From assembly GCF_041821065.1 (NCBI RefSeq), contig NZ_JBGUAX010000004.1, positions 310,001-374,000 on the forward strand: a stretch of 64,000 nucleotides of DNA, read 5' to 3'. The stretch is from Egicoccus sp. AB-alg2 (GTDB lineage: Bacteria > Actinomycetota > Nitriliruptoria > Nitriliruptorales > Nitriliruptoraceae). Every line of letters begins with the position of its first letter. The first letter of the stretch is position 1. Shown piece by piece: positions 12,321 to 36,520 of the stretch. The notes under the pieces were generated by a model that was not told where the DNA came from, did no database searches, and saw nothing but the letters and a program-made list of their open reading frames with translations. The position numbers and the translations under genes were made by a program.

Positions 12321-13232
12321 GTGAAGCCCCCGGTGTTCGCCTACCACGCACCGCGGTCGGTCGAGGAGACGCTCGAGCTGTTGGCGCAGCTCGGCGCCGA
12401 GGCGAAGGTGCTCGCCGGCGGCCAGTCGCTGGTGCCGATGCTCAACATGCGACTGGTGGCGCCGGCCGTCCTGGTCGACATCCGGCACCTCGACGACCTC
12501 GACACCGTCGAGGTCGCCGACGGCCGCGTCCGCGTCGGCGCCCGGGTGCGCCACCGCCGCCTGGAGCGTGACGACGCGGCCCATGCGGCCCAACCGGTGC
12601 TGCGCGAGGCGCTGGAGCTGGTCGCCCACCCCGTCATCCGCAACCGCGGCACCAGCGTCGGCTCCATCGTCCACGCCGACCCGGCCGCCGAGCTGCCGGC
12701 CGTCGTCGCACTGCTGGACGCGCGGCTGGAGCTGACGTCGCGTGACGGCGTGCGGCACGTGACGGGCGCGGACGCGTTCCTCGGCCCCTTGGAGAGCGCG
12801 CTGCGGCCCGGCGAGCTGGCGACGGCCGTGGAGTTCCCGGTCCGGTCCCCGTACGGCGGCGCCGCCGTCGAGGAGTTGGCGCGCCGGCACGGCGACTACG
12901 CACTCGCGGGCGTGGCGGCACAGGTCGACCTCGACGAGGACCGCCGGGTGACCGCGGCGAAGGCGGCGTTCTTCGGGGTCGGTGGCGAACCGGCCGCGAT
13001 CGACGTGGGCCAGGCGCTGGCCGGTCAGCCCGCCGACGCGCTGCGCGTCGACGACGCGGTCGGCCTCGCCCGCGACGGGCTGGACCCCGACGACGACATC
13101 CACGCGACCGCGTCCTACCGGCGCCACCTCGCCGGGGTGCTGCTGGGCCGGGCGCTGGTCCGCGCCGCCGCGGCCGCCACGACGCCGACCGCGGCCTCGA
13201 CGCCCGACCCGGCCCGGGAGGTGCACGCGTGA
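12321..13232 (+). CDS. coxM: Molybdenum hydroxylase FAD subunit (CoxM/XdhB type)
   Basis: 303 aa from GTG 12321, with GAGGGAG upstream. It carries FAD between the iron-sulfur subunit and an external acceptor. N-terminal FAD loop: AKVLAGGQSLVPMLNMRL; the second FAD loop: RNRGTSVGSIVHADPAAELPA; CO_deh_flav_C domain from about residue 180. First gene of an operon whose members overlap by 4 bases (coxM-coxS-coxL-coxG-amidase). Symbols follow family shape only; this is not a CO dehydrogenase (see the large subunit). Confidence 0.9.
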   Translation: MKPPVFAYHAPRSVEETLELLAQLGAEAKVLAGGQSLVPMLNMRLVAPAVLVDIRHLDDLDTVEVADGRVRVGARVRHRRLERDDAAHAAQPVLREALELVAHPVIRNRGTSVGSIVHADPAAELPAVVALLDARLELTSRDGVRHVTGADAFLGPLESALRPGELATAVEFPVRSPYGGAAVEELARRHGDYALAGVAAQVDLDEDRRVTAAKAAFFGVGGEPAAIDVGQALAGQPADALRVDDAVGLARDGLDPDDDIHATASYRRHLAGVLLGRALVRAAAAATTPTAASTPDPAREVHA

Positions 13233-13780
13233 CCGAGGAATTGCACGACGTCACCGTGACGGTCAACGGCGCGCTGCACCGCGCGTCCGTGCCGGCGCGG
13301 CGCCTGCTGTCCGACTTCCTGCGCCACGACCTGCGACTGACCGGCACCCACGTGGGCTGCGAGCACGGCGTCTGCGGGGCCTGCACCGTCCTGCTCGACG
13401 GAGAGCCGGTCCGTTCGTGCCTGACGTTCGCCGTGTCGGTCGACGGCGCGGCCGTCACCACCGTGGAGGGTCTGGCCGCCGAGGACGGCACGCTGCACCC
13501 GGTGCAGCAGGCGTTCCAGGACTGCCACGGCCTGCAGTGCGGGTTCTGCACCCCCGGCTTCGTGATGAGCGCCTGCGGGTTCCTGGCCGAGCACGCGGAG
13601 CCACGGCCGGACCAGATCCGCGAGGGCATGGCCGGCAACCTGTGCCGCTGCACCGGCTACGCCGGCATCCTGGCGGCCGTCGAGCAGGCCGCCGGGGTGC
13701 TGCGCGAGACCGGCGCCGACCCGCGGGACCGGCACGTCGCACGCGACCGCGGGCACGACGAGGCGGAGGTGTCGTCGTGA
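13229..13780 (+). CDS. coxS: Molybdenum hydroxylase [2Fe-2S] subunit (CoxS/XdhC-small type)
   Basis: 183 aa. Plant-type [2Fe-2S] domain with VGCEHGVCGACTVLLDGEPVRSC near residues 45-70, then the fused four-helix [2Fe-2S] domain with LQCGFCTPGFVMSA and GNLCRCTGYAGI. Both clusters are complete, so electron flow from the Mo site to FAD is intact. It ends with a charged tail of about 25 residues longer than most CoxS proteins. GTG start overlaps coxM stop; the end overlaps the coxL start. Confidence 0.92.
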   Translation: MTEELHDVTVTVNGALHRASVPARRLLSDFLRHDLRLTGTHVGCEHGVCGACTVLLDGEPVRSCLTFAVSVDGAAVTTVEGLAAEDGTLHPVQQAFQDCHGLQCGFCTPGFVMSACGFLAEHAEPRPDQIREGMAGNLCRCTGYAGILAAVEQAAGVLRETGADPRDRHVARDRGHDEAEVSS

Positions 13781-16158
13781 CCACGCGCCAGTTCGGGACC
13801 GCGGTCGCCCGCGTCGAGGACCCGCGTCTGTTGCGCGGCGAGGGGCGCTACCTCGACGACCTCGGCCACGACGCGCTGGCCGTGGCCATCCTGCGCAGCC
13901 CCCATGCGCACGCACGGATCCGCGACATCGACGTGACCGCCGCCGTCGACGTGGACGGGCTGGTCGCGATCTACACCTACGAGGACCTGCCGCCACGACT
14001 GCAGCAGGCGATGCCGCTGCTCATCCCGCACCCGTCGCTGACCGCGCCCGTGACCCAGAAGGTGCTGGCCGACGGCGAGGTCAACCACGTCGGCGAAGCG
14101 GTCGCGATGGTCGTCGCCAGCGACCGGTACGTCGCCGAGGACGTCCTCGACCGCATCCGCGTCGACTACGAGATCCTGCCGGCCGTCGTCGACCTCGAGG
14201 TGGCCGTCGGGAACGGGGGCGCCGTCCACGACGCCGTGCCGGGCAACGTGGCCGCGGAGATGGAGCAGACCATCGGCGACGCGCCGTCCGCGATCGAGGC
14301 GGCCCCGCACCGGCTCTCGCTGCGGCTGGACATCGAGCGTTCCGCGTCCACGCCGATGGAGGGCCGCGGCGTCCACGCCCGGTGGGACCCCGACGACCGG
14401 CGGCTGCGGGTCCACACCTCCACACAGGCCCCCACCAGCGTCCGCGCCGCCATCGCCACCTTCCTGGAGCTCGACTTCGCTCAGGTCGAGGTGGTCGTGC
14501 CCGACGTCGGCGGCGGCTTCGGCGTGAAGATCATGCACCCGTGGCCCGAGGAGATCCTCGTGCCCTGGGCGGCGCGGCTGCTGGGACACGACGTCAAGTT
14601 CACCGAGGACCGCCACGAGCACTTCGTCTCGGCCAACCACGAGCGCGGCCAGGTCCAGTGGGTCGAGGTCGGTTTCGACGACGACGGACGCATCCTCGGC
14701 CTGGACGTGCGGTTCCTCCACGACCACGGGGCCTACATCCCGTACGGCCTGATCGTGCCGATCATCACGTCCACGCAGCTGCTGGGGCCCTACCGGATCG
14801 AGCACTACCGGGTCCGCTTCCAGAGCGTCTACACGAACAAGACGCCCGTGACCCCCTACCGCGGCGCCGGCCGTCCCCAGGGCTGCTTCCTGATGGAGCG
14901 CACGGTCGACGCCATCGCCGCGCAGCTCGGCCTCGACCGCACCGAGGTGCGCGCCCGCAACTTCATCCAGCCCGACGAGATGCCCTACGCCTTCGGCCTG
15001 ACCTTCCAGGACGGCCGCGACTACACCTACGACTCCGGCGACTTCCCCGCCTCGCTGGCCAAGCTCAAGGAACTGGTCGACTGGGACGGCTTCGCCGCCC
15101 GCAAGGAGGCGGCCGCCGCCGAGGGTCGCCTGCTGGGCATCGGCCTCGCCTGCTACGTCGAGGGCACGGGCGTCGGTCCGTACGAGGGCGGCCACGTCCT
15201 GGTCGAACCCAACGGCACCGTGCAGGTCGCAACCGGCCTGGGCACCCAGGGGCAGGGGCACCAGACCGCGTTCGCGCAGATCGCCGCCGACGAGCTGGGG
15301 GTGCCGCTCGAGCAGGTGAAGGTCGTCACGGGCGACACGCGCCGGTTCCAGTACGCCGTCGGCACCTTCGCGTCGCGCGCCGCGGTCATGTCCGGCAACG
15401 CGATCCACCTCGCCGCCCGCAAGGTGCGGGAAAAGGCCCTGCAGCTGGCCTCCGACGCCCTGGAGGTCGACGTCGAGGATCTCGAGCTGGCCGACGGGCG
15501 CGTCCAGGTCGTCGGCAGCCCGGACACCGGTTTGCCGCTCTCCATGCTGGCGACGCTGTCCAACCCGCTGCGCTACGCCTTCGACGAGCACGCCAAGGCC
15601 GCGACCCAGTTCGCCGGCCCCAACGACCCGAACAAGCCGCCCGTCGCCGAAGGGCAGGCCCCGGGCCTGGAGGGCACGGACTACTACTCGCCGGTGCGCT
15701 CGACGTTCGCCAACGGCATGCACGCCGTCGAGGTCGAGGTCGACCCAGCCACCTCCGACATCCGCATCCAGCGCTACGCGGTGGTGCACGACTGCGGCAA
15801 CCTCATCAACCCCCGCATCGTCCAGGGCCAGGTCCTGGGCGGGGTGGCCCAGGGCGTCGGTGGCGCGCTGTACGAGCGCATGGCCTACGACGAGCACGGC
15901 CAGCTGCTCAACGCGTCGTTCATGGACTTCCTCATGCCCTATGCGACCGAAGTCCCGCCGGTGGAGATCGACCACCTGGAGACGCCGTCGCCGCTGAACC
16001 CGCTGGGGATCAAGGGTGCCGGCGAGGCCGGGGTCATCCCCGGCTCGGCCGCCATCGCCGCCGCCATCGAGGACGCGACGGGGGTCCCCATCCACGCCAT
16101 GCCGATCTCGCCGTCGCAGCTGCACGAGCTGCGCACGGCCGCAGGAGGTGCCCAGTGA
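13777..16158 (+). CDS. Molybdenum hydroxylase large subunit (not form I CO dehydrogenase)
   Basis: 793 aa from GTG 13777. It binds the Mo-cytosine-dinucleotide cofactor and hydroxylates a substrate carbon with water as oxygen source. Motifs include VRGEGRYLDDL-like start, DVGGGFGVKIMHPWPEE for cofactor binding, GLGTQGQGHQTAFAQIAADE, and the catalytic Glu750 in IKGAGEAGVIPG. The active-site loop at 360-366 reads PYRGAGR, not the AYxCSFR loop with the S-selanyl-cysteine copper site of aerobic CO dehydrogenase, so CO is not the substrate. Neighbours (barbiturase-type enzyme, NCS2 permease, amidase) make an N-heterocycle likely; uracil/thymine hydroxylation to barbiturate is my preferred reading. 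Overlaps both flanking genes. Confidence 0.9.
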   Translation: MTTRQFGTAVARVEDPRLLRGEGRYLDDLGHDALAVAILRSPHAHARIRDIDVTAAVDVDGLVAIYTYEDLPPRLQQAMPLLIPHPSLTAPVTQKVLADGEVNHVGEAVAMVVASDRYVAEDVLDRIRVDYEILPAVVDLEVAVGNGGAVHDAVPGNVAAEMEQTIGDAPSAIEAAPHRLSLRLDIERSASTPMEGRGVHARWDPDDRRLRVHTSTQAPTSVRAAIATFLELDFAQVEVVVPDVGGGFGVKIMHPWPEEILVPWAARLLGHDVKFTEDRHEHFVSANHERGQVQWVEVGFDDDGRILGLDVRFLHDHGAYIPYGLIVPIITSTQLLGPYRIEHYRVRFQSVYTNKTPVTPYRGAGRPQGCFLMERTVDAIAAQLGLDRTEVRARNFIQPDEMPYAFGLTFQDGRDYTYDSGDFPASLAKLKELVDWDGFAARKEAAAAEGRLLGIGLACYVEGTGVGPYEGGHVLVEPNGTVQVATGLGTQGQGHQTAFAQIAADELGVPLEQVKVVTGDTRRFQYAVGTFASRAAVMSGNAIHLAARKVREKALQLASDALEVDVEDLELADGRVQVVGSPDTGLPLSMLATLSNPLRYAFDEHAKAATQFAGPNDPNKPPVAEGQAPGLEGTDYYSPVRSTFANGMHAVEVEVDPATSDIRIQRYAVVHDCGNLINPRIVQGQVLGGVAQGVGGALYERMAYDEHGQLLNASFMDFLMPYATEVPPVEIDHLETPSPLNPLGIKGAGEAGVIPGSAAIAAAIEDATGVPIHAMPISPSQLHELRTAAGGAQ

Positions 16159-16835
16159 AGGTGTCCGGGACGTACACGCTCGCCGCGCCGCGCCAGCAGG
16201 TCTGGGAGGCACTGCAGGACCCGTCCGTGCTCGCACGCACGATCCCGGGCTGCGAAGCGCTGGAGGTCACCGGCGACGACGCGTACGCCGCCACCGTCAC
16301 GGCGGGGGTGGCCAGCGTGAAGGGCACCTACCAGGGGCAGGTCCAGCTGCGCGACAAGCAGGTGCCCTCCAGCTACCGGCTGCAGGCCGAGGGCGCCGGC
16401 GCGCCCGGCACCATCCGCGCGGACGCGCTGATCCGCCTCGAGGACCACGACGGCGACCGTACGCGGGTGACCTTCGACGCCGACGCCGTCATCGGCGGGA
16501 TGATCGGCGGGGTCGGCCAACGGATGCTCGCCGGCGTCGCGAAGAAGACGGCCGGCGAGTTCTTCGCCGCGGTCGAACGCGAGCTGCTCGGCGTCCCGGC
16601 CGAGGTGGCGGCCGAGGTACCGGCCGCGGCCCCCGCGGCCCCCGCGGCCCCCGCGGTCGCGGCGGCGGGCGAGGCGCCCGCCGCGGCCGCGCCCGTGGTC
16701 GGCCAGGTCTTCCGCGGGGCGCCGCGCCCGGCGGCGGCCGCCCCCAGCCGCCTGACCGAGCTGCTGGCGGCCTTCGGGCTCGGCGCGCTGGTCGCGATCG
16801 TCGGAGTGATCGTCGGCCGCCGGATGCGGCCGTGA
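16155..16835 (+). CDS. coxG: CoxG-like SRPBCC protein with membrane anchor
   Basis: 226 aa, GTG 16155 after a GGAGGTG ribosome site. Residues 1-145 are the CO_deh_subunit-G (SRPBCC) fold: KVSGTYTLAAPRQQVWEAL, then TIPGCEALEV and the GMIGGVGQRMLAG helix. An Ala/Pro linker (about 150-200) leads to a C-terminal transmembrane helix, LAAFGLGALVAIVGVIVG, ending in basic residues. CoxG in Oligotropha is proposed to tether the Mo-hydroxylase to the membrane and may bind small molecules. The same role fits here and suggests the enzyme passes electrons to the respiratory chain. Overlaps coxL and the amidase gene. Confidence 0.85.
   Translation: MKVSGTYTLAAPRQQVWEALQDPSVLARTIPGCEALEVTGDDAYAATVTAGVASVKGTYQGQVQLRDKQVPSSYRLQAEGAGAPGTIRADALIRLEDHDGDRTRVTFDADAVIGGMIGGVGQRMLAGVAKKTAGEFFAAVERELLGVPAEVAAEVPAAAPAAPAAPAVAAAGEAPAAAAPVVGQVFRGAPRPAAAAPSRLTELLAAFGLGALVAIVGVIVGRRMRP
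16626..16652 (+). repeat. Three 9-bp tandem repeats in the coxG linker
   Basis: GCGGCCCCC occurs three times in a row, in frame, encoding an Ala-Ala-Pro linker. A likely slippage site that can lengthen or shorten the linker without a frameshift. Confidence 0.7.
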
Positions 16836-18112
16836 GTCTCGTACGGGACACCGGCGTCCGGACCATCCGCGACCGGATCGCCGCCGGTGAGGCCTCGGTC
16901 GTCGAGGTGGTGCAGGACCACCTCGACGCCATCGTGGACCGCGAGGACGACCTGCACGCGTGGGCGCACCTCGACCCCGACCTCGCCCTCGCCCAGGCGC
17001 GGGCCCTCGACGCCCTCCCGGAGGACGAGCGCGGCCCGCTGCACGGCGTCCCGGTCGGGGTGAAGGACATCCTCGACACCCACGACCAACCGACCGCGCA
17101 CGGCTCGCCGATCTACGCGGGCCACCGGCCCGCCGCCGACGCGGTCGCCGTCGCACGGCTGCGGGCGGCCGGGGCCGTGGTGCTCGGCAAGACCGTCACC
17201 ACCGAGTTCGCGCTGTTCCAGCCCGGCCCGACCCGCAACCCGTTCGACCGCACGCGCACGCCGGGTGGCTCGTCCAGCGGTTCGGCCGCCGCGGTCGGTG
17301 CCGGGACCGTGCCGCTGGCGATCGGCACGCAGACGGCCGGCTCGGTCGTGCGGCCCGCGTCCTTCTGCGGGACCGTCGGCGCCAAGCCCACGTTCGGGGC
17401 GGTGCCGCTCGACGGCGTGAAGCTGTGCTCGCCGAGTCTCGACACGGTCGGCCTGCTCGGCCGCGACGTCGACGACGTCGCCCTCGGCCTGGGCGTCATG
17501 GCCGGCGACGTCGATCGCTTCCGCCCGGCCGAGCTCGGGGATCGTCCGGTCGTCGGCTTCCTGCGCACGCCCTGGTGGCACGAGGTCGAACGCCCGGCCC
17601 GCGGGGCCGTCGAGGCGGCCGTGACACGACTGGCCGGCGACGTCGACGTGGTCGAGGTCCGCCTGCCGGACGCGTTCGCGGGGCTCGTCGAGGCCCAGCA
17701 GGTCGTCATGGGTGTCGAGGTGCTCGACGCGCTGCGGCCGGAGATCGAGCAGCACACCTCACGGCTGAGCGCCCGGCTGCGGGCCTACCTCGACGACGCG
17801 CGCCGGCTCGTCGACGCCTACGACGACGCGATCGCGCTGCGTGACCGGTGCCGGGCCCAGCTCGACGAGGCCTTCGGCGACGTGCGGGTCGTGCTGGCAC
17901 CCAGCGTGCTCGGCGAGGCCCCCGACGCCGCGACCACCGGCGACCCGATGCTGTGCCGGCCCTGGACCCTGCTGGGTACCCCGACCGTCGCCGTCCCCGG
18001 GTTGACCGGCGCGGGCGGTCTGCCGCTGGGCGTGCAGACGGTCGCGCGACCCGGCGACGACGCCGGCGCCCTCGGCACCGCCCGCCTGCTCCACCGCCTG
18101 CTGACGGCGTAG
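16832..18112 (+). CDS. Amidase-signature enzyme (malonamidase/ureidomalonase candidate)
   Basis: 426 aa, GTG 16832 overlapping coxG by 4 bases. The Ser-cisSer-Lys triad is complete: Lys78 in PVGVKDILDT, cis-Ser147 in TPGGSSSGSAAAV and nucleophile Ser171 in TQTAGSVVRPA. Spacings of 69 and 24 residues equal those of malonamidase E2 (Lys62, Ser131, Ser155), whose usual length (about 412) is also similar. Being last in the Mo-hydroxylase operon, it should act on a product of that pathway. Malonamate to malonate plus ammonia, or direct cleavage of ureidomalonate, are the best guesses; an AtzF/AtzE-like or GatA-like role is less likely from context. The substrate is not readable directly because the triad spacing is shared across the family. 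Confidence 0.85.
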   Translation: MSLVRDTGVRTIRDRIAAGEASVVEVVQDHLDAIVDREDDLHAWAHLDPDLALAQARALDALPEDERGPLHGVPVGVKDILDTHDQPTAHGSPIYAGHRPAADAVAVARLRAAGAVVLGKTVTTEFALFQPGPTRNPFDRTRTPGGSSSGSAAAVGAGTVPLAIGTQTAGSVVRPASFCGTVGAKPTFGAVPLDGVKLCSPSLDTVGLLGRDVDDVALGLGVMAGDVDRFRPAELGDRPVVGFLRTPWWHEVERPARGAVEAAVTRLAGDVDVVEVRLPDAFAGLVEAQQVVMGVEVLDALRPEIEQHTSRLSARLRAYLDDARRLVDAYDDAIALRDRCRAQLDEAFGDVRVVLAPSVLGEAPDAATTGDPMLCRPWTLLGTPTVAVPGLTGAGGLPLGVQTVARPGDDAGALGTARLLHRLLTA

Positions 18113-20735: not shown

Positions 20736-21686
20736 GTGGGAGAGCGGACGGTCATCGCCCTGGGCGGCAACGCCATCGCCCCCGCGGGCACGGCGGGCAC
20801 GGCCGAGGAGCAGACGGTCAACATCTGGCGGACCATGCGCCAGATCGCCGAGCTGGTGGCCGACGGGCTCGACCAGCTCGTGTTGACCCACGGCAACGGC
20901 CCGCAGGTCGGCAACGTGCTCATCAAGAACGAGTTGGCCCGCGACGTGGTGCCGCCCGTGCCGCTCGACTGGTGCGTCGCGCAGACGCAGGCCACGATCG
21001 GCTTCACCATCGCCGACACCCTCGGACACGAGTTGCGACGTCTCGGGCACGAACGTCCCGTGGTCCCCGTGGTCAGCCGTGTGCTCGTGGCCGCCGACGA
21101 CCCCGCCTTCGCGCTACCCACCAAGCCGATCGGCCCCTACCTGGGCGATCCCGACGACGTCGCCCGTCGCGAGCGCGACGGCCAGCAGTTCGTCCGGGTC
21201 GGCGAGCGCGGCTGGCGGCGGGTCGTCCCCTCGCCGCAGCCGCTGGCGTGCGTGGACCGGCCGGCCGTCGACCTCCTCCTCGACGACGGGGCCATCGTGG
21301 TCGCCAACGGCGGTGGCGGCATCCCGGTCGTCGAGCAGCCCGACGGACCGCTCGGCGGCGTCGAGGCCGTCATCGACAAGGACCTCGCCGGCGCGCTGCT
21401 CGCCGAGGAGCTCGGCGCCACCACCTTCGTGATCCTCACCGACGTCCCGGCCGTCGCCATCGACTACGGCACGCCGCAGCAGCGCTGGCTCGGGGAGGTC
21501 TCCCTTGCCGAGCTGCGCGGGCTGCAGGACGGGGGCCACTTCTCCGCCGGTTCGATGGGCCCGAAGGTCGAGGCGGCCTGCCGGTTCGTCGAACGCACCG
21601 GCGGCCGGGCGGCGATCGCCTCGCTGGACGACGTGGTAGCGGCCGCCGGCGGGACGGCCGGCACCCGGATCCTGGCCTCGACGTGA
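20736..21686 (+). CDS. arcC: Carbamate kinase
   Basis: 316 aa from GTG 20736. It transfers phosphate between carbamoyl phosphate and ADP, giving ATP, CO2 and ammonia in the catabolic direction. Motifs: VIALGGNAIAP, LVLTHGNGPQVGNVL, PLDWCVAQTQATIGFT, the nucleotide loop GAIVVANGGGGIPV, VIDKDLAGALLAEEL and the HFSAGSMGPKVEAAC segment. Family length is about 310. A TACCGT -10 box lies at 20699-20704. It is translationally coupled to the next gene and heads an operon with DUF2877, FdrA and DUF1116 proteins, the same set that accompanies carbamate kinase AllK in the E. coli allantoin region. No arginine deiminase genes are near, so the carbamoyl phosphate must come from the partner genes. Confidence 0.93.
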   Translation: MGERTVIALGGNAIAPAGTAGTAEEQTVNIWRTMRQIAELVADGLDQLVLTHGNGPQVGNVLIKNELARDVVPPVPLDWCVAQTQATIGFTIADTLGHELRRLGHERPVVPVVSRVLVAADDPAFALPTKPIGPYLGDPDDVARRERDGQQFVRVGERGWRRVVPSPQPLACVDRPAVDLLLDDGAIVVANGGGGIPVVEQPDGPLGGVEAVIDKDLAGALLAEELGATTFVILTDVPAVAIDYGTPQQRWLGEVSLAELRGLQDGGHFSAGSMGPKVEAACRFVERTGGRAAIASLDDVVAAAGGTAGTRILAST

Positions 21687-22651
21687 CGCGGCCCGCGGAC
21701 GACGGATCCGCCGTGGTCGGGGCCACGGCCAGTACCGGTGTCGCCGACGTGCTGCGCGGTTCGCGTCGGCGGGCGCGTGTGCTGGCGGCCTTCCCGGCCG
21801 CGCTGTACCTCGAGCACGACGACGGACTGCTGGCACTGGTGAGCCCCGACGGGATCGCCCACCCCAACGCGGTCGTGCTGGCGCAGCCGGTGGCGTCTCC
21901 CGGGCTGACCGGCCACGCCCCCGGGACCGTCGGGCACGTCGGCGACCTCGGCGTGGCGTTGCCTGGACTGCACGCCCGCGTCACGCGCTGGTTCGACCCG
22001 CGCCCGCGATTGCGTCCGGTCCGGGCGTCGGTGCTGGCGACCCGCAGCGCCGCGGCGCTCGCGCTGGTCGAGCGACGTGCCGGACCGACGCCGGAGCTCC
22101 TGGCCACCCGCCTGCGCGAACTCGTCGCGGCATCCACGACCGGGGACGTCGCGGTCACCACGGCCGTCGCTCGGCGACTGGTCGGACTCGGGCCCGGCCT
22201 CACCCCGGCGGGCGACGACGTGCTCGCGGGCCTCTTCGCGGGCACGCCGGCCCTGGCCGCGGCGCTGGGCCGGCCCCACGCGCCGTCCGTGACGGCCCTC
22301 CGGGGCGTGGCCGACCGGGTGCTGCCCACCGTGGGGCACGCCACCACCGCCGTCTCGGCGGCGCTGCTGCGCCACGCCGCGCGCGGCGAGGTCGCCGCGC
22401 CCGCCGCCGCGGTGCTGCGGGCCCTGACGGCCGCGGAGGTGCCCGACGCCGTGCCGTCCGACGGCACCGCCGGCCCGGCACTGTGCACCGGGCTCGACGA
22501 CCTGCTCGCGGTCGGCTCGACGTCAGGGCGCGACCTCGCACTCGGGCTGCTGGCCGCGGCCGAGGTGCTGCTGCACGAGGCCGCCCCTCGCGCGGCGGCT
22601 GCTGCGTCGCGGCCCCTCCACGACCTCCCACCGATCCGAGGACGAACCTGA
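21683..22651 (+). CDS. DUF2877 protein (AllH/YlbF-like carbamoyltransferase subunit)
   Basis: 322 aa, GTG 21683 overlapping arcC by 4 bases. The DUF2877 signature LVGLGPGLTPAGDDVLAGLFAG sits near residue 170 and VLPTVGHATTAVSAALLRHAARGE near 215. In E. coli the family member YlbF has been renamed AllH, a subunit of oxamate carbamoyltransferase with AllF and AllG. All three subunits occur here in a row with a carbamate kinase. The protein is about 50 residues longer than the E. coli one, mainly in Ala-rich linkers. Confidence 0.8.
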   Translation: MTRPADDGSAVVGATASTGVADVLRGSRRRARVLAAFPAALYLEHDDGLLALVSPDGIAHPNAVVLAQPVASPGLTGHAPGTVGHVGDLGVALPGLHARVTRWFDPRPRLRPVRASVLATRSAAALALVERRAGPTPELLATRLRELVAASTTGDVAVTTAVARRLVGLGPGLTPAGDDVLAGLFAGTPALAAALGRPHAPSVTALRGVADRVLPTVGHATTAVSAALLRHAARGEVAAPAAAVLRALTAAEVPDAVPSDGTAGPALCTGLDDLLAVGSTSGRDLALGLLAAAEVLLHEAAPRAAAAASRPLHDLPPIRGRT

Positions 22652-24123
22652 TGGTCGACCACCTCGACATCCGCCGCGGGGTCTATGCCGACTCCGTCAG
22701 CCTCATGCAGGTCAGCCGCCGGGTCGCCGACGTCGACGGCGTCGACGGCGCCCTGGTCGCCATGGCCACCGAGTTGAACCTCGAACTGCTCGCCGGCATG
22801 GGCTTCGAGGCGACCGACGCCGGCCCGAACGACCTGGTCGTGGCGGTGCGCGCCGCCGACGACGACGTGCTGCAGGCCGCGCTGGCCGAGCTGGAGGCCG
22901 CGCTGGCCGCCAGCCGCGGCGGCGGCGCCGCGGCCAGCTTCGGGGACGCGCCACCGCCGCGCACGGTCCGCGACGCCGCCGCCCTCGGCGGCGACCTGGC
23001 GCTGGTGTCCGTCCCGGGCGAGCACGCCTACGTCGAGGCGCTCGACGCGTTGCGCGCCGGCCTGCACGTCATGCTGTTCAGCGACAACGTGCCGCTGGAC
23101 GCGGAGATCGACCTGAAGCGGCAGGCCGAGCAGCGCGGCCTGCTGGTCATGGGCCCCGACGCCGGGACCGCGATCGTCTCGGGCGTCGGGCTCGGCTTCG
23201 CCAACGTCGTGCCACCCGGCCCCGTGGGCGTGGTCGCCGCGTCGGGAACCGGCGCCCAGCAGCTGACCTGCCTCCTCGACGACGCGGGTGTCGGCGTGTC
23301 GCACGTGCTGGGCGTCGGCGGTCGCGACCTCAAGGAGGAGGTCGGGGGTCGCTCGACGCTGCAGGCGCTGCAGGCCCTGGACGCCGACCCGGCCACCGAG
23401 GTCGTGGTGATCCTCTCCAAGCCGCCCGCGGCGTCGGTCGCCGACCGGGTGCGCGCGGCCGCCGCCGAGTGCAAGACGCCGGTGGTCATGGGCCTGCTCG
23501 GTCCGGGCCAGGACGACCTCAGCGCGATCACGGCCGAGGTGCTGGGCCGGCTCGGCCGCGAGGTGCCCGCGTGGCGGACGTGGGGCGAGCCCGTCCGGGC
23601 CGGCGGCGGCGACCGGCTCGTCGGCCTGTTCGCGGGCGGGACGCTGTGCGCGGAGGCGTTGCTGATCGCCGAGGCGGCGCTCGGTCCCGTGACCGCCAAC
23701 GTCGGCGAGCGCGCCGACGCGGACGCGGCCGCCGACCCCACCGCCAGCGGGCACGTCCTGGTCGACCTCGGCGAGGACGAGTACACCCGCGGCCGGCCCC
23801 ACCCGATGATCGACCAGCAGCTGCGCCTCGAGCGCATCGCCGCGGAGGCCGCCCGGGACGACACGGCCGTGCTGCTGCTGGACGTCGTCCTCGGGCACGG
23901 CGCGCACCCGGACCCGGCCGGTGAGCTGGCGCCCGCCATCGCCGACGCCCGCCGGACGGCTGCCGCGGCCGGGCGGGAGCTGGCGGTCGTGGTCTCGTTG
24001 TGCGGCACAGTCGGCGACCCCCAGGGCCGCGACCGTCAGGCCGCCGCGCTGGCGGAGGCCGGCGCGCAGGTGTTCGTGTCGAACGCCGCCGCGGCCCGCG
24101 CCGCCGTCGCCTGCCTCGGCTGA
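22651..24123 (+). CDS. fdrA: FdrA-family protein (AllF-like carbamoyltransferase subunit)
   Basis: 490 aa; ATG 22651 overlaps the previous stop by one base (TGATG). Two succinyl-CoA-synthetase-like halves are visible: VRRGVYADSVSLMQVSR-like start, HVMLFSDNVPLDAEIDLKR, LLVMGPDAGTAIVSGVGLGF, then GVVAASGTGAQQLTCLLDDAG and GVGGRDLKEEVGG. The C-terminal half has GLFAGGTLCAEALLIAE and GRPHPMIDQQLR. FdrA is AllF of the E. coli oxamate carbamoyltransferase; these folds handle acyl-phosphate chemistry, fitting phosphorolysis of a ureido group to carbamoyl phosphate. Here it is about 65 residues shorter than E. coli FdrA. Then 96 bases of gap precede the DUF1116 gene. Confidence 0.85.
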   Translation: MVDHLDIRRGVYADSVSLMQVSRRVADVDGVDGALVAMATELNLELLAGMGFEATDAGPNDLVVAVRAADDDVLQAALAELEAALAASRGGGAAASFGDAPPPRTVRDAAALGGDLALVSVPGEHAYVEALDALRAGLHVMLFSDNVPLDAEIDLKRQAEQRGLLVMGPDAGTAIVSGVGLGFANVVPPGPVGVVAASGTGAQQLTCLLDDAGVGVSHVLGVGGRDLKEEVGGRSTLQALQALDADPATEVVVILSKPPAASVADRVRAAAAECKTPVVMGLLGPGQDDLSAITAEVLGRLGREVPAWRTWGEPVRAGGGDRLVGLFAGGTLCAEALLIAEAALGPVTANVGERADADAAADPTASGHVLVDLGEDEYTRGRPHPMIDQQLRLERIAAEAARDDTAVLLLDVVLGHGAHPDPAGELAPAIADARRTAAAAGRELAVVVSLCGTVGDPQGRDRQAAALAEAGAQVFVSNAAAARAAVACLG

Positions 24124-24219
24124 GCCACCGCCCAGTCTCTCCCTCCCGACCGCCGCACCCCACCCGGACCCGCCACGCGCCGGACCCGCGCCGTTCACCG
24201 CCCACGAATCGAGGGACCC

Positions 24220-25650
24220 GTGACCGACCAGACCGACACCGCCCCGCTCGCCGCGCTGCTCGACGGTCCGCCCCGGGTCGTGGCGGCCGGCGTCGAACTG
24301 TTCGAGACGACCCTCCGCGACCAGGGCGTCGACGTGGTGCCCGTGGATTGGCGCCCGCCGGTCGACGGGCTTGCGGCCGAGCTCGCCCGTGTCGCCGCCG
24401 ACCCCCGCACCGAGGAGGCCAACCGGGTGGCGCTGGAGCGGGTCATCGCCGCCGAGCCCCACTGGGTCGGCATCCGCACGGCCCGCGAGGCGGTCGGGAT
24501 CGAGACGGGCCAGTTCCTGCACGCCGGCCCGCCGATCACCTGGGAGCGGGCCTCGGGACCGCTGCGCGGCGCACTGATCGGCGCGATGCTCTACGAGGGG
24601 ATGGCGGAGACGCCCGAGGAGGCGCAGCGCATCGGCGAGCGCGGCGAGCTCGAGCTGGCGCCCTGCCACCACCACCGCGCCGTCGGACCGATGGCCGGTG
24701 TCGTATCGCCGTCGATGCCGATGTTCGTCGTGGAGAACGGCGCGTTCGGCAACGTGGCGCACTGCTCGCTCAACGAGGGCCTCGGCAAGGTGCTGCGCTA
24801 CGGCGCCTACGCGCCGGAGGTCGTCGAGCGCCTGCAGTGGATGGCGCAGGTGCTCGGCCCCGCGTTGGGCGCCGCGGTCGGCCGGCTGGGTTCGCTGGAC
24901 CTGCGGGCCGTCATCTCGCAGGCCCTGCAGATGGGCGACGAGCTGCACAACCGCAACCGGGCGGCGTCGGCCCTGATCGTGCGCGAGATCGTGCCGCCGC
25001 TGCTGGAGGCCGGCATCGACCCGGGCGACCTCGCCGACGTCGTGCGCTTCGTCAACGGCAACGAGCACTTCTTCCTCAACCTCGGCATGCCCGCGGCCAA
25101 GTCCGCCATGGACCCCGCGCGCGACCTGCCCGGCTCCACGATGGTCGTCGCCATGGCCCGCAACGGCACCGACTTCGGGGTGCAGGTGTCGGGCACCGGC
25201 GACCAGTGGTTCACCGGCCCCGCCGAGGTGCCCGACGGGCTGTTCCTCGGCAACTACACCGCCGAGGACGCCAACCCGGACATCGGCGACTCCACGATCA
25301 TGGAGACGGCCGGAGTCGGCGGGTTCGCCATGGCCGCCGCCCCCGCCATCGTCCGCTTCGTCGGCGGGCAGGCGTCCGACGCGCTGGACGCGACCCGCTC
25401 CATGTACTCGATCGCGCTCGGCGAGCACCCGCACTACCAGGTGCCGATCCTGGAGTTCCGTGGCACGCCGGTCGGCATCGACGTGACCCGCATCGTGCGC
25501 ACCGGGACGCTGCCGTTCGTCAACACCGGCATCGCGGGCAAGGAGGCCGGCACCGGGCAGGTCGGGGCGGGGCTGGTGTCGCCGCCGATATCGGCGTTCG
25601 CCGACGCCGTCCGGGCGCTGGCGGCCGCCGCCGAGGCGCCGGTGGGGTGA
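24220..25650 (+). CDS. DUF1116 protein (AllG/YlbE-like carbamoyltransferase subunit)
   Basis: 476 aa from GTG 24220 (GAGGGACCC before it). DUF1116 hallmarks: GLRT-like AREAVGIETGQFLHAGPPITWE, LIGAMLYEGMAETPEEA, CHHHRAVGPMAGVVSPSMP, VENGAFGNVAHCSLNEGLGKVLRYG, and HFFLNLGMPAAKSAMD with VVAMARNGTDFGVQVSGTG. Family name AllG in the E. coli enzyme. The His-rich CHHHRAVGP motif is a likely catalytic or metal site by its conservation, which is inference. Longer than YlbE (about 420) by an N-terminal extension. Overlaps the NmrA-like gene by 4 bases. Confidence 0.85.
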   Translation: MTDQTDTAPLAALLDGPPRVVAAGVELFETTLRDQGVDVVPVDWRPPVDGLAAELARVAADPRTEEANRVALERVIAAEPHWVGIRTAREAVGIETGQFLHAGPPITWERASGPLRGALIGAMLYEGMAETPEEAQRIGERGELELAPCHHHRAVGPMAGVVSPSMPMFVVENGAFGNVAHCSLNEGLGKVLRYGAYAPEVVERLQWMAQVLGPALGAAVGRLGSLDLRAVISQALQMGDELHNRNRAASALIVREIVPPLLEAGIDPGDLADVVRFVNGNEHFFLNLGMPAAKSAMDPARDLPGSTMVVAMARNGTDFGVQVSGTGDQWFTGPAEVPDGLFLGNYTAEDANPDIGDSTIMETAGVGGFAMAAAPAIVRFVGGQASDALDATRSMYSIALGEHPHYQVPILEFRGTPVGIDVTRIVRTGTLPFVNTGIAGKEAGTGQVGAGLVSPPISAFADAVRALAAAAEAPVG

Positions 25651-26513
25651 ACGCCGCGGACGACCGGCCGATCCTCGTCACCGGTGCCGGCGGCAAGACC
25701 GGCCGCGCGGTCCTGCGCGCGCTCGTCGACGCCGGTGCGCCCGCGCGGGCCCTGCTCCGCGGCCCCGACCGGCTGGCGGACGCCCCCGGACTGCACGGCA
25801 CGGTCGAGACGGTCGTCGGCGACCAGCGTGACCGCGACGACCTCGAAGCGGCACTGGACGGGGTGGCCGCCGTGTACGCGATCGCGCCGAACCTGCACCC
25901 CGACGAGGTCGTCATGGGCCGGGCGCTGGTCGACGCGTGCCGACGCCGTGGCCTGACGCGGGTCGTCTACCACTCGGTGATCCACCCGCAGGTGCGGGCC
26001 ATGCCGCACCACGCCGACAAGGGCCGCGTCGAGGAACTGCTGGTCACCAGCGACCTCGACTGGACGATCCTGCAGCCCAACGCCTACCTGCAGAACCTGC
26101 GCGGCTACGTCGACGGACTGCGCGACGGCGTCTACGCGGTGCCCTACGCCACCGACCGGCGCCTGGCGATGGTCGACCTGGACGAGGTCGCCGAGGTGGC
26201 CGCCCGGTGTCTCGTCGAGGGCCTGGGCGTCCACGCCAGCTTCGAACTGTCCGGGCCGGCCGAGGTGAGTGCCGATGACGTCGCGGCGGCCGCCGCGCGG
26301 GCGCTCGGGCGGCCCGTGACCGCCGTTCGCCGCGACCCGGCCACCTGGGTGGCCGGCCAGTCGGGGCTGTGCGAGGAGACGCGCCGCCGCCTGCTGGCGA
26401 TGCTCACCGCCTACGACCAACACGGCTCGCCGGGCGATGCCACCGTGTTGGGCGCCCTGCTCGGCCGCGCACCTCGCGGTCTCGACGACGTGCTCCCCGC
26501 GCTCCTGGCCTGA
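25647..26513 (+). CDS. NmrA-like NAD(P)-binding protein
   Basis: 288 aa; GTG 25647 overlaps the DUF1116 stop. Rossmann loop ILVTGAGGKTGRAVLRAL, VAAVYAIAPNLHPDE, RVVYHSVIHPQVRAMPHHADKGRVEE and LDWTILQPNAYLQNL place it with the NmrA/HSCARG-like atypical SDRs, which often sense NADPH or reduce small substrates. The usual catalytic Tyr-x3-Lys of classical SDRs is not clear. As the last gene of the carbamoyltransferase operon it may reduce a pathway intermediate or act as a redox sensor. No specific role is supported. Confidence 0.75.
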   Translation: MNAADDRPILVTGAGGKTGRAVLRALVDAGAPARALLRGPDRLADAPGLHGTVETVVGDQRDRDDLEAALDGVAAVYAIAPNLHPDEVVMGRALVDACRRRGLTRVVYHSVIHPQVRAMPHHADKGRVEELLVTSDLDWTILQPNAYLQNLRGYVDGLRDGVYAVPYATDRRLAMVDLDEVAEVAARCLVEGLGVHASFELSGPAEVSADDVAAAAARALGRPVTAVRRDPATWVAGQSGLCEETRRRLLAMLTAYDQHGSPGDATVLGALLGRAPRGLDDVLPALLA

Positions 26514-26700: not shown

Positions 26701-28821
26701 GTGAGACGCATCCGCATCGGCATCGACACCGGCGGCACCTTCACGGACGTCGTCGCGTTCGACGAGTCCACCGGCTCGCTGACCACGACGAAGACCCCGT
26801 CGACGCCCAGCGACCCGGGGGAGGGCTTCCTCAACGGGGTCGACAAGGTGCTCGGCCTGCTCGGCGCCGGCGGCGAGGAGGTCGCGGCCGTCTCGCACGG
26901 CACGACGGTGGCCACCAACGCCCTGCTCGAGGATCGCATCGAGCACATGGGGCTGATCACCACGACCGGCTACCGGTTCATCCTCGAGATCGCTCGCCAG
27001 TCCGTGCCCGACGGTTACGGCAACAGCTACTTCTGGGTGAAGCCCGACCGCATCGTCCCCGTCGACCGGGTCAAGGAGGTCGGCGGCCGGCTGGACGTCC
27101 GCGGCGAGGAGGTCGCCCCCTTCGACGAGGAGGACGCGGTCGCCGTCGCGCGCTGGTTCAGGGGCCGCGGCATCGAAACCATCGGGGTCTGCTTCCTGCA
27201 CGCCTACGCCAACGACGTCCACGAGCGGCGCATGCTCGAGGTGCTGCAGCGGGAGCACCCGGACGCAGTCGTCTCGCTGTCCAGCGAGGTGCTGCGCGAG
27301 TACCGCGAGTACGAACGCACCGTCACGACGCTGGTCGACGCCTCGGTCAAACCGCGTGTCGGGCGCTACATCCGCGGGATCGCGCAGCGCCTGGACGCCT
27401 ACACCACCGGCAACGGCGACGGCGGCGCCACCGAGGTCAGCGTCCCGTTCTACATCATGAAGTCCAACGGTGGGGTCATCAGCTCCAACGAGGTCGTGCA
27501 CCAGCCGATCACGACCGTGCTGTCGGGTCCCGCCGCAGGTGCCCTGGGTGCCGCGCTGGTGGCGGGCGAGGCCGGCTACGACCGCATCCTCACCTGCGAC
27601 GGCGGCGGGACCTCGACCGACGTGTCCGTGGTCCTCGGCGGCGAGCCGACGCTGACGACCGAGGGCTCGATCGGCCGCTTCCCGTCCAAGATCCCGATGA
27701 TCGACATCGTGACCGTCGGGGCCGGCGGCGGCTCGATCGCCTGGATCAGCCCCGAGGGCAACCTCAAGGTCGGGCCGCGCTCCGCCGGCGCCGACCCGGG
27801 ACCGCTGTGCTACGCCAAAGGCGGCACCGAACCGACCGTCACCGACGCGCACGTCTTCCTCGGGCGCATCCCGCCGCACCTGCTGGGCGGCGAGATCCCG
27901 CTCGACCGCGACGCCGCCCGGGCCGGCATCGAGCGGCTGGCCGGCGAGCTCGGCCTCAGCTCCGAGGACGCCGCCCGCGGCATCCTGGAGATCTCCGCCT
28001 GGAACCAGGCCAACGCCATCCGCCAGATCACGGTCAAACGTGGCCTGGACGTGCGCGAGTTCGCGATGGCCGCGTTCGGCGGCTCCGGGCCGCTGCTGGT
28101 CTGCCGGCTCATCGACATCCTCGGCCTGCAGGCCGTGGTCGTGCCGCTCGATCCCGGCAACCTGTCGGCCTTCGGCCTGCTCACGGTCGACGTGAAGAAC
28201 GACTACGTGCAGACCCACGTGGTCCCGGACGCGAGCCTCGACCTCGACCAGATCGCCGCGGTCTACGGCGCCCTGGAGGAGCGGGCCGCCGACGCGCTGG
28301 ACCGCGAGGGCTTCGACCCCGCCGACCATCGCTTCGTGCGCACCGCCGACCTGCGCTACGACGGGCAGGCCTTCGAGGTACGCGTGCCGGCCTCCGCCGG
28401 ACCCGTCGACGCCGACTTCCAGCGCGCCGTCGTCGCCGCCTTCCACGACGAGCACGAACGCCTCTACGGCTACTGCTACCGCGACGAGCCGCGCCACGGC
28501 GTGGAGTGGGTGAACCTGCGCGTCAGCGGCGTCGGCCCGATCCAGCGGCCGAGCCTGCGGCGCCTGGAGCCGGGCGACGGCGACACCTCGGGGGCCCGCA
28601 CCGGGACCCGCCCGGTCGTCTTCGGCGGTGACGCCGTCGACACCCCGATCTACGCCCGCGAGCGGCTGCGCGCCGGCGACCTCGTCGAGGGACCGGCGAT
28701 CGTCGAGGAGTTCGGGTCCACGGTCCCGATCCACCCCGGCTTCTCCGCGCGCGTGGACGAACTGGCCAACCTCGTCGTCACCTCGGTGCACGCCGACACG
28801 ACCGCCGAAGGAGCGCGGTGA
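26701..28821 (+). CDS. hyuA: Hydantoinase/oxoprolinase A subunit
   Basis: 706 aa, GTG 26701 with an AAGGAG site; a TAGGGT box lies at 26630-26635. N-terminal ASKHA ATPase fold: IGIDTGGTFTDVVAFDE, VSHGTTVATNALLE, and later TCDGGGTSTDVSVVLGGEPT and VGAGGGSIAWISPEG. The family hydrolyses ATP to open cyclic amides such as N-methylhydantoin or 5-oxoproline, or to activate ketones for carboxylation. It is coupled to hyuB. Length matches N-methylhydantoinase A (about 700). Position just after the ureide genes suggests a cyclic ureide substrate; N-methylhydantoin would yield carbamoylsarcosine and link to the C1 genes further on. Both ideas are inference. Confidence 0.88.
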   Translation: MRRIRIGIDTGGTFTDVVAFDESTGSLTTTKTPSTPSDPGEGFLNGVDKVLGLLGAGGEEVAAVSHGTTVATNALLEDRIEHMGLITTTGYRFILEIARQSVPDGYGNSYFWVKPDRIVPVDRVKEVGGRLDVRGEEVAPFDEEDAVAVARWFRGRGIETIGVCFLHAYANDVHERRMLEVLQREHPDAVVSLSSEVLREYREYERTVTTLVDASVKPRVGRYIRGIAQRLDAYTTGNGDGGATEVSVPFYIMKSNGGVISSNEVVHQPITTVLSGPAAGALGAALVAGEAGYDRILTCDGGGTSTDVSVVLGGEPTLTTEGSIGRFPSKIPMIDIVTVGAGGGSIAWISPEGNLKVGPRSAGADPGPLCYAKGGTEPTVTDAHVFLGRIPPHLLGGEIPLDRDAARAGIERLAGELGLSSEDAARGILEISAWNQANAIRQITVKRGLDVREFAMAAFGGSGPLLVCRLIDILGLQAVVVPLDPGNLSAFGLLTVDVKNDYVQTHVVPDASLDLDQIAAVYGALEERAADALDREGFDPADHRFVRTADLRYDGQAFEVRVPASAGPVDADFQRAVVAAFHDEHERLYGYCYRDEPRHGVEWVNLRVSGVGPIQRPSLRRLEPGDGDTSGARTGTRPVVFGGDAVDTPIYARERLRAGDLVEGPAIVEEFGSTVPIHPGFSARVDELANLVVTSVHADTTAEGAR

Positions 28822-30710
28822 TGAGCAACCACGAACCGCTCGCACCCGAAGCCCCGCACGCCGCATCCAAGGGCGTCGACCCGATCGTGCTGGAGATCGT
28901 GCAGGGCACGCTCGCCTCGATCGAGAAGGAGGTCGAGGACGCGATCGGCCGGACGTCGCGCTCGCCGATGATCCGCGACGCGCACGACTACCGCGCCGGC
29001 ATCCACGACGCGAAGCTGCGCAAACTCACGGGCCGGTCGTACTCCGCGCTGGTGCACCCGGTCGCGCGCGACTTCCCGCCGGAGACCATGCACCCGGGCG
29101 ACGTCTTCTTCCACAACGACGTCTACCTCTCCGAGGGCGGCATCGGCCACCTGCCGGACCTGTGCGTCACCGTGCCGGTGTTCCACGAGGACCGCGTCGT
29201 CGCCTACGTGCAGGCCTTCGGCCACCACGACGACATCGGTGGTTGCGTGCCCGGCTCCATGCCCTCGGGCGCACGTAGCGTCTTCGAGGAAGGCTTGATG
29301 GTCCCGCCCATCAAGCTGTGGGACCGGGGCGTTCCCAACCGTGCCGCGCTCACCATCATGACCCGCAACTCGCGCATGCCCGACTCGCTGGCCGGTGACC
29401 TCGACGCGGAGTGCTCCGCCTGCCTGATGGGCTCGCGGCGCCTGTCCGAGCTGTTCGAGCGCTACGGCCTGGAGACCGTCGAGGCCTGCTTCGACGCGAT
29501 CATCGCCAACAACGCGGAGACCTACCGGCGAGAGATCCTGCCCAAGATCCCCGAGGGGACCTACGTGTGGGAGGACTACGCGGAGCACGACGGCGTCGAC
29601 GAACCGAAGCTGCACCGCCAGCGCATCACGCTGACCAAGGTGCCGGACAAGCTGATCATCGACTTCACCGGGACCTCGCCGCAGGCCAAGGGCCCGATCA
29701 ACCACTGCGGCGACTACGCCGACGGCAACTTCCTCAAGAAGTGGCTCGGCCCGATCCTGCGCAACCTCGCCGACACGCCCGAGCGGATGGCGGAGCTCGA
29801 CGTCAACGAGGGCATCGTGGACCTGATCGAGATGCGCTTCCCGGAGAAGGGCACCCTGCTCACGCCGATCTTCCCGGCGCCGACCAACGCCCGCACGTTC
29901 GTGATCCTGCGGCTGCTCGGCGTGCTCGCCGGGGTGTTGGCCAAGGCCACCGACGGGCGCATGCCCGCCGACCAGGAGACGATCCGCTACACGGGCGTCT
30001 ACGGCCGGCGCGCCGACGGCAGCTCCTACCTCATGCGCGAGGTGCTCGGCGGCGGCTCGGGCGGGCGCTACTACAGCGACGGCGAGGACACGATCCACGT
30101 CGTGCCCGACTCGCGCAACCTGCCGACCGAGTTCACCGAGTCGCGCTTCCCGTTCCGGGTGGAGAAGCTCGGGCTGGCGGTCGACTCCGGCGGGCCCGGC
30201 CAGTTCCGCGGCGGGCTCGGCTACGACAAGTGGATCCGGATGCTCGAGCCGGCGTCGTTCATGTCGATCGCCGACCGCTCGATCCTGGCCTGCTGGGGGG
30301 TCAACGGCGGCCGCGCCGGCGCGCCGTTCCGGGTCACCGTCGACCCGGGCGGCCCCACCGAGCGCGAGCTCGAGGGCCTGGTCGACGACGAGCCGATCGC
30401 TGCCGGCGAGGTGATCCGGATCCGCACCACCGGCGGCGGTGGCTGGGGCGACCCCCTGGACCGCGACGTCGACCTGGTCGGCCGCGACGTGCTCTGGGGC
30501 AAGGTCAGCCGTGACGGTGCGCGGGAGGACTACGGCGTCGTGGTCACCGGCCCCGACGACGAGCCCGTGGTCGACCACGACGCCACCGTCGATCTGCGCG
30601 CCCGCCTGCGCGAGGAACGCGGCGAGCAGCCGGCGTTCTTCGACCGCGGCCCCGGCTACGCGCGGCTCGACCCGGACGGTCAGCCCTTCCCCGAGGTCGA
30701 CCGGCGCTGA
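28821..30710 (+). CDS. hyuB: Hydantoinase/oxoprolinase B subunit
   Basis: 629 aa from ATG 28821; a GTG at 28818 gives one extra residue and cannot be excluded. HydantoinaseB family throughout: [68 protein letters not shown], and the C-terminal [26 protein letters not shown] and [13 protein letters not shown]. It forms the catalytic partner of HyuA. The HyuA stop overlaps the start. The last 60 residues are charged and typical for the family. Confidence 0.88.
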
Positions 30711-31161: not shown

Positions 31162-32322
31162 ATGACCGAGCAGCGCACCGGACCCGGCCCCCTCGCGGGC
31201 ATCCGCGTCGTCGACCTGTCCCGCGCCCTGTCGGGCCCGTACGCGAGCATGATGCTCGCCGATGCCGGTGCCGAGGTGATCAAGGTCGAGCGCCCGGGAT
31301 CCGGAGACGACACCCGCGGGTGGGGGCCACCGTTCGTCGGCGACGACCAGGCGGAGTCGGCCTATTACCTGTCGATCAACCGCTCGAAGAAGTCCGTCAC
31401 GCTGGACCTGAAGGACGCCGACGACCTGGCGCGTCTGCGTGCCCTGATCCAGGATGCGGACGTGCTGGTGGAGAACTTCCGCCCCGGCGTGATGGACCGT
31501 CTCGGGCTGGGTGAGCAGGCGCTGGCCGAGCTCAACGACCGGCTGGTGATCCTCTCGATCACCGGCTTCGGCGAGGGTGGTCCCGACGGACAGCGCTCCG
31601 GCTTCGACCAGATCATCCAGGGCGAGGCCGGCCTCATGGGGATCACGGGCCCGGTCGGGGGCCCGCCCACGAAGATGGGCGTGCCGATCACCGACATCCT
31701 GTCGGGGATGTTCGGTGCCTACGGCGTGGTGGCCGCCCTGCACGAACGTGAACGGACCGGCACGGGGCAACGCGTCACCACCTCGCTGCTGGCCTCGGCG
31801 GTGGCCGTGCACACCTTCCAGGGCACCCGCTGGACGCTGGCCGGCGAGGTCCCCGAGCCGGGCGGCAACCGCCATCCCACCATCGCGCCCTACGGCGCGT
31901 TCACCTGCGCCGACGGCTGGGTCAACGTCGCGGTCGGCTCGGAGGGGCTGTGGCAGCGGTTCGCGCCGGTCGCCGGTCTGGACGTCGACGACCCGCGTTA
32001 CTCGACCAACCGTGACCGCGTCGCCAACTGGGACGAGCTGGAGGCGGAGATCAACGCCGTGCTGGCGAAGGACACCGTCGACGCCTGGATGGAGCGGTTC
32101 AACGAGGCCGGGGTGCCGGCCGGGCGTATCCGCACGATGGACCAGGTCTACGGCTGGGAACAGCTCGAGCACCTCGGCCTCGTCGACCGGGTCGCGCACC
32201 CGACCGCCGGCGACCTCGCGCTGCCGGGCGCGCCGGTGTCCTGGTCCCGATCGGGCCGCCGGCCCGCCACGCCGCCGCCGCTGCTGGGCGAGCACGACGA
32301 CGAGGTCTTCGACGAGCACTGA
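31162..32322 (+). CDS. CaiB/BaiF family (class III) CoA-transferase
   Basis: 386 aa, ATG 31162. It moves CoA between carboxylic acids with an enzyme Asp-CoA anhydride. Motifs: VDLSRALSGPYASMMLADAGAEVIKVE, LDLKDADDLARLRALI, LVENFRPGVMDRLGLG, FDQIIQGEAGLMGITG and the catalytic Asp in KMGVPITDILSGMFGAYG. Fewer than 20 such proteins have known substrates, so none is assigned. In this setting malonate, the end product proposed for the pyrimidine route, is an attractive candidate since malonyl-CoA would feed central metabolism. It stands alone between the hyu genes and a convergent mycothiol-type gene. Confidence 0.88.
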   Translation: MTEQRTGPGPLAGIRVVDLSRALSGPYASMMLADAGAEVIKVERPGSGDDTRGWGPPFVGDDQAESAYYLSINRSKKSVTLDLKDADDLARLRALIQDADVLVENFRPGVMDRLGLGEQALAELNDRLVILSITGFGEGGPDGQRSGFDQIIQGEAGLMGITGPVGGPPTKMGVPITDILSGMFGAYGVVAALHERERTGTGQRVTTSLLASAVAVHTFQGTRWTLAGEVPEPGGNRHPTIAPYGAFTCADGWVNVAVGSEGLWQRFAPVAGLDVDDPRYSTNRDRVANWDELEAEINAVLAKDTVDAWMERFNEAGVPAGRIRTMDQVYGWEQLEHLGLVDRVAHPTAGDLALPGAPVSWSRSGRRPATPPPLLGEHDDEVFDEH

Positions 32323-34130: not shown

Positions 34131-34161
34131 CGCGCAACTCGGTCGGTCGGCGCATGAACGC

Positions 34162-36425: not shown

Positions 36426-36436
36426 AACGCCGGATC

Positions 36437-36500: not shown

Positions 36501-36520
36501 CGGCAACGGAGGGGATCGGA

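Follow-up and report, generated by a model that had tools for sequence, protein, structure and literature searches.

A 64,000-nucleotide stretch of the Egicoccus sp. AB-alg2 genome (contig NZ_JBGUAX010000004.1, positions 310,001 to 374,000; here called the window; 74% GC) carries, at 20736–25650, consecutive plus-strand genes for a carbamate kinase and for the AllH, AllF and AllG subunits of an AllFGH-type carbamoyltransferase. We propose, with a probability of roughly 0.8, that these four proteins complete oxidative pyrimidine degradation, and that the carbamoyl donor would be ureidomalonate, the product of barbiturase (PMC3758960). The proposal draws on gene identities, cluster conservation, co-occurrence, a separate AllG clade and the absence of allantoinase and urease; from these we infer every reaction and substrate given below.

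The four-gene set and its link to barbiturase

A preliminary description, made from the letters of the window, had listed carbamate kinase, DUF2877, FdrA and DUF1116 genes as consecutive and mostly overlapping; coordinates, order and near-overlap were all correct:

20736–21686, plus strand: carbamate kinase, AllK-like (GTG start; arcC, 346.8 bits)
21683–22651, plus strand: AllH-like subunit, DUF2877 (Pfam AllH, 69.9 bits, cut-off 25)
22651–24123, plus strand: AllF/FdrA-like subunit (PRK06091, 424.6 bits, cut-off 433; solved FdrA structure 3dmy, 241 bits)
24220–25650, plus strand: AllG-like subunit, DUF1116 (Pfam AllG, 322 bits, cut-off 27; matches solved structure 3clq)

The carbamate kinase and AllH genes share 4 bases, the start of AllF falls on the AllH stop codon, and 96 bases separate AllF from AllG. 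All three subunit families are recognized by Pfam or NCBIfam in adjacent genes, as befits an AllFGH-type carbamoyltransferase, and the arcC-like gene that overlaps AllH is its carbamate kinase partner; the arcC score of this gene is slightly below the cut-off (358), and it exceeds the cut-off for the PRK12352 carbamate kinase. The same three families and a carbamate kinase stand in one run in the E. coli AllFGH/AllK system (PMC11326118); identities to the K-12 proteins are 45% for AllF, 46% for AllG, 32% for AllH and 44% for AllK, and more than 80 positions are invariant across ten AllG proteins of distant origin, K-12 among them. Chance as the source of the set is excluded. The genome holds a single AllG copy. 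Unlike its E. coli counterpart, which closes allantoin breakdown, the window set is ordered K-H-F-G rather than F-G-H-K, lies in a barbiturase cluster without allantoin genes, and has an AllG that belongs to a separate clade and retains an N-terminal module.

The association with barbiturase is seen at the level of whole genomes. We surveyed the same 396 Actinomycetota genomes for AllG and for AtzD-family ring openers, and found the former in 52 and the latter in 28: both in 25, AllG only in 27 and the ring opener only in 3 (Fisher p = 5e-22 for all genomes and 2e-4 when the window's class is set aside; the genomes are not phylogenetically independent). Within the window's class, AllG occurs in 25 of 66 genomes; in the portion of the class that entered the survey, the 20 AllG-positive and the 20 barbiturase-positive genomes are identical sets, and none of the 20 others has barbiturase. 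The three ring openers found without AllG are cyanurate-type enzymes, so that the 25 AllG-linked ones are of the barbiturase type wherever type was checked; nearly every AllG-linked enzyme is 68–90% identical to that of the window, as against about 47% identity with the cyanurate type. Of the 80 genomes whose AllG proteins came out closest in an independent scan, 79 have the ring-opener family (two of them as short fragments only), the sole exception being a metagenome assembly.

Gene order is conserved as well. Among 35 related loci, tabulated from 20-kb stretches that were fetched from related genomes, several genera have one continuous cluster (for example L039+L040, L043+L044 and L045+L046) in the order PucR-family regulator, barbiturase, permease, carbamate kinase, AllH, AllF, AllG, CoxM, CoxL, CoxG, amidase, HyuA, HyuB and CoA-transferase. 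More distant actinobacteria have an altered order, with barbiturase usually within tens of kilobases when it is on the same contig: CoA-transferase, carbamate kinase and barbiturase are contiguous, in that order, in L070/L071/L166, and barbiturase directly precedes AllH-AllF-AllG in L074, L075/L076 and L159. In L056 and its relatives, a cytosine deaminase-like gene lies between barbiturase and the permease, which fits a pyrimidine source.

On the AllG tree, barbiturase-linked proteins make up one side of a branch with support of 98/96 (34 of the 55 rows), and the barbiturase label changes once, as against 17 times in shuffles. Allantoin-linked AllG proteins (E. coli, Salmonella and Enterococcus sets) form another clade (support 100/100), to which the window's AllG does not belong; a clade apart from the allantoin-linked proteins, a prospect raised in the preliminary description, is thus what the tree gives for this subunit. 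Outside both clades fall the cysteine hydrolase sets of ColV-type plasmids and Peptoclostridium, the cyanurate plasmid sets and the Yah set.

Proposed pathway and its alternatives

The upstream partners of the four-gene set lie 3–14 kb from it, barbiturase at 13 kb, and further genes of the cluster follow AllG:

5174–6841, minus strand: PucR-family regulator (Pfam PucR, 118 bits), divergent from barbiturase and adjoining it in relatives
6976–8088, plus strand: barbiturase of the AtzD/TrzD ring-opening amidohydrolase family (5hwe, 551 bits)
8158–9819, plus strand: nucleobase permease (Pfam Xan_ur_permease, 256 bits), between barbiturase and carbamate kinase in relatives
12321–13232, plus strand: flavin adenine dinucleotide (FAD) subunit of a molybdenum (Mo) hydroxylase, CoxM-like (Pfam FAD_binding_5, 148.7 bits)
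13229–13780, plus strand: Mo-hydroxylase 2Fe-2S subunit, CoxS-like (motifs CEHGVCGAC and CGFCTPG...CRCTGY in the reading frame)
13777–16158, plus strand: Mo-hydroxylase large subunit, proposed uracil/thymine dehydrogenase (quinoline 2-oxidoreductase, 475 bits)
16155–16835, plus strand: CoxG-like Mo-hydroxylase accessory protein (Pfam COXG, 89 bits)
16829–18112, plus strand: amidase, proposed malonamate amidase (malonamidase E2, 270 bits)
25647–26513, plus strand: NmrA-like NAD(P)-binding protein, overlapping AllG and retained after it in some relatives
26707–28821, plus strand: HyuA-like subunit of an ATP-dependent amide/ring hydrolase (Pfam; solved N-methylhydantoinase, 469 bits)
28818–30710, plus strand: HyuB-like subunit (Pfam Hydantoinase_B, 467 bits)
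31162–32322, plus strand: class III CoA-transferase, proposed malonate CoA-transferase (Pfam; succinate-hydroxymethylglutarate CoA-transferase, 300 bits)

The ring opener at 6976–8088 has barbiturase as its best solved structure, and the highest-scoring cyanuric acid hydrolase trails at 300 bits. NCBIfam names the large Mo-hydroxylase subunit CO dehydrogenase (CoxL), an identity that we rejected: the active-site loop of form I CO dehydrogenase is AYXCSFR and the loop here reads PYRGAGR, while quinoline 2-oxidoreductase, the nearest solved structure, scores above CO dehydrogenase (415 bits). The enzyme is thus of the heterocycle type, with uracil or thymine as the substrate suggested by gene position. 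The amidase has malonamidase E2 as its nearest solved structure by a wide margin (143 bits for the next family), and shares the cisSer and nucleophile-Ser motifs of that enzyme (GTQTAGSVVRPA in the window, GTQTGGSVIRPA in malonamidase E2) together with an Arg after the nucleophile, which we take to be the residue that binds the substrate's carboxylate. This Arg, three residues past the catalytic Ser, is present in 9 of 9 cluster amidases, all of which read TQTAGS(V/I)VRPA, close to TQTGGSVIRPA of malonamidase E2; two amidases from clusters without barbiturase read TDTAGSIRIPA.

In the proposed pathway, uracil would be taken up by the permease and oxidized to barbiturate by the Mo-hydroxylase, and barbiturase would open the ring to yield ureidomalonate (3-oxo-3-ureidopropanoate). 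AllFGH would then convert ureidomalonate and inorganic phosphate (Pi) to malonamate and carbamoyl phosphate; carbamate kinase would use the latter, with ADP, to form ATP, CO2 and ammonia; the malonamidase-like amidase would turn malonamate into malonate; and the CoA-transferase would produce malonyl-CoA. Activity is established for E. coli AllFGH, which interconverts oxalurate plus Pi and oxamate plus carbamoyl phosphate (PMC11326118). Ureidomalonate is oxalurate with one additional CH2, so the presumed reaction, acylurea + Pi <-> amide + carbamoyl phosphate, would repeat the E. coli chemistry with a longer acylurea. Judged by homology, each AllFGH product would find its enzyme in the operon: carbamoyl phosphate would be taken by carbamate kinase, and malonamate by the window's amidase, whose predicted activity is that of the malonamidase E2 family. 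The CoA-transferase, nearest to a dicarboxylate enzyme, could activate malonate. Barbiturase, Mo-hydroxylase and nucleobase permease stand together as expected of the oxidative pyrimidine pathway (uracil dehydrogenase, barbiturase, ureidomalonase), but here the last step seems to yield ATP by phosphorolytic carbamoyl transfer instead of urea by hydrolysis; the cell looks to gain ATP from the ring-opening product rather than to lose energy as urea. We found no papers in which ureidomalonate is linked to carbamoyl phosphate or barbiturase to carbamate kinase, in a search that covered the subscription literature poorly, so that prior notice is possible.

Several points weigh against the ureidomalonate proposal. 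In the window, minus-strand genes break the cluster between amidase and carbamate kinase. Close AllG relatives without barbiturase exist (G095, G187 and G207 in family f6; G077 and G091 in family f17), so neighbouring AllG lineages have other uses; and given the kinship of the close relatives, co-occurrence could reflect one origin followed by joint inheritance. HyuAB is conserved and has no clear step in our scheme. Since the family f6 loci have it next to AllF-AllG and carry no barbiturase, its target may be a different ring, for instance that of 5-methylbarbiturate or of a hydantoin. The known oxidative pathway, moreover, ends with ureidomalonase, which gives malonate and urea (PMC3758960), and an amidase-family ureidomalonase might take the last step here too.

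This last point leads to an alternative that we consider improbable, in which the amidase is the ureidomalonase and AllFGHK acts on a different acylurea, for example a HyuAB product. Ureidomalonase activity has precedent, and HyuAB resembles ring-opening hydrolases and is directly beside AllF-AllG in the clusters without barbiturase. Three loci have barbiturase immediately before AllH-AllF-AllG, however, with no HyuAB within the retrieved flanks (L074, L075 and L159); the amidase is nearest to a malonamate enzyme; and with no urease found in the Egicoccus genome, urea would go no further. As a separate observation, Mo-hydroxylase, HyuA, HyuB, AllF and AllG are adjacent in f6 loci (L067, L072 and L073), where HyuAB may take barbiturase's place as ring opener.

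We give very little credence to the set being an ordinary oxamate carbamoyltransferase supplied with oxalurate from outside or by an unseen route. It has its subunit families and carbamate kinase in common with E. coli AllFGHK, but its AllG stands apart from the allantoin-linked clade and is linked to barbiturase instead, and the allantoin genes are missing. No allantoinase exceeds the cut-off anywhere in the genome, which is 98% complete (best match 229 bits, cut-off 358); AllA, B, C, D and E are absent from the window, and AllD and AllE from the cluster and its barbiturase-linked relatives. Allantoate amidohydrolase and ureidoglycolate dehydrogenase, sought in the window and related loci only, were not found in the window. 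The preliminary description saw no arginine deiminase in the window; elsewhere in the genome are two genes that resemble arcA, the arginine deiminase gene (484 and 440 bits), both under the cut-off of 489. The preliminary description was therefore right that the window lacks allantoin genes, and probably also that the donor is something other than allantoin-derived oxalurate; its further suggestion, a donor made elsewhere, is not needed, with barbiturase 13 kb away and in the same cluster in relatives.

A creatinine route, in which HyuAB opens N-methylhydantoin, AllFGH frees sarcosine from N-carbamoylsarcosine, and sarcosine is used by two proteins encoded nearby, one like dimethylglycine/sarcosine dehydrogenase and the other a formate-tetrahydrofolate ligase (FTHFS), is suggested by the name of HyuA's nearest solved structure (N-methylhydantoinase) and by the GCV_T/DAO oxidoreductase and FTHFS at 34–40 kb in the window, but we rejected it because these sarcosine-type genes do not travel with AllG: they are beside it in 0 of the 35 tabulated loci, where barbiturase does accompany it.

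Subunit lengths and other AllFGHK sets

The differences in subunit length from E. coli that the preliminary description had pointed out are real, but they trace to a relocated module rather than to substrate. Sets from outside the allantoin clade, where measured, have an AllG of 472–476 residues and an AllF of 489–519; in the allantoin type the values are 419–420 and 554–585. AllF of the allantoin type ends with what is otherwise the N-terminal module of AllG, about 45 residues long: a profile made from the N-terminal part of AllG matches residues 507–552 of K-12 AllF (E = 4e-6) and the AllF of Salmonella (3e-8) and Enterococcus (1.4e-4), the best shuffle reaching 0.19. Plain pairwise alignment of the module does not outscore shuffles (40, as against a shuffle maximum of 46). 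In the actinobacterium G358, AllF and AllG form one reading frame with the module in mid-protein. Because the profile places the module at the allantoin-type AllF end and G358 has the single frame, the difference in length comes down to a moved gene boundary, with fusion and fission as the probable route. The unusual sets are the allantoin-type ones, not the window's, and we discarded subunit length as a marker of substrate. Long frames with AllF and AllG (1036–1079 residues) lie beside ureidoglycolate dehydrogenase in L173+L174 (G358) and L191+L192 (G362); the single frame was confirmed in G358.

Similar sets occur with other front ends. On an enterobacterial plasmid (NZ_MZ753460, 8989–16630 of L183), a ring opener of the cyanuric-acid-hydrolase type, a permease, AllH, AllF, AllG, carbamate kinase and a LysR regulator form one run, which recurs on many plasmids of Citrobacter, Klebsiella, Leclercia and Enterobacter; no biuret or allophanate hydrolase is annotated within it. 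Like the window, these plasmids pair an AtzD-family ring opener with AllFGHK, and may be regarded as an independent parallel that supports the pairing; they differ in the ring opener (47% identical), in an AllG of another clade, and in having no Mo-hydroxylase, malonamidase or CoA-transferase. Phosphorolysis of biuret to urea and carbamoyl phosphate is plausible for them. Another front end is a cysteine hydrolase, found with AllH, AllF, AllG, carbamate kinase and a nucleobase permease on E. coli ColV-type plasmids and in Peptoclostridium (6816–14994 of L082 and 13190–20351 of L079).

We lean towards the view that AllFGH is a general acylurea phosphorylase module that different bacteria combine with a range of ring-opening front ends, for allantoin, barbiturate and cyanurate among others; this locus would be the barbiturate case, with a ureidomalonate carbamoyltransferase not described before. 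If so, pyrimidine and triazine rings could be used with a gain of ATP, oxidative pyrimidine degradation would acquire an energy-conserving, urea-free last step, and there would be a concrete candidate substrate for a family that is widespread under the annotations acyl-CoA synthetase FdrA, DUF1116 and DUF2877. It would also urge caution over the default reading of allFGHK as oxalurate use, a reading applied to nitrifier genomes (PMC12625717).

The AllH protein (21683–22651) has invariant GxGPGLTPxGDD-like positions. Its predicted structure is confident (pLDDT 91), with a beta-rich N-terminal part and a helical domain; a fold search among solved structures gave no clear match (zero Foldseek hits at E <= 0.001), and the best VIA-align match (Z 4.5, rmsd 5.6, 99 residues) bears nothing on mechanism. 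Further along the window, 34123–41564 is a methyl-group oxidation block with no link to AllG in relatives (formate-tetrahydrofolate ligase, a cyclodeaminase-like protein, a GntR regulator, a dimethylglycine/sarcosine dehydrogenase-like protein and electron-transfer flavoprotein-like genes). At 49523–60136, an MttB-family methyltransferase, a RACo-like activator, a corrinoid protein and a glycine betaine ABC transporter likely form a corrinoid quaternary-amine demethylation system.

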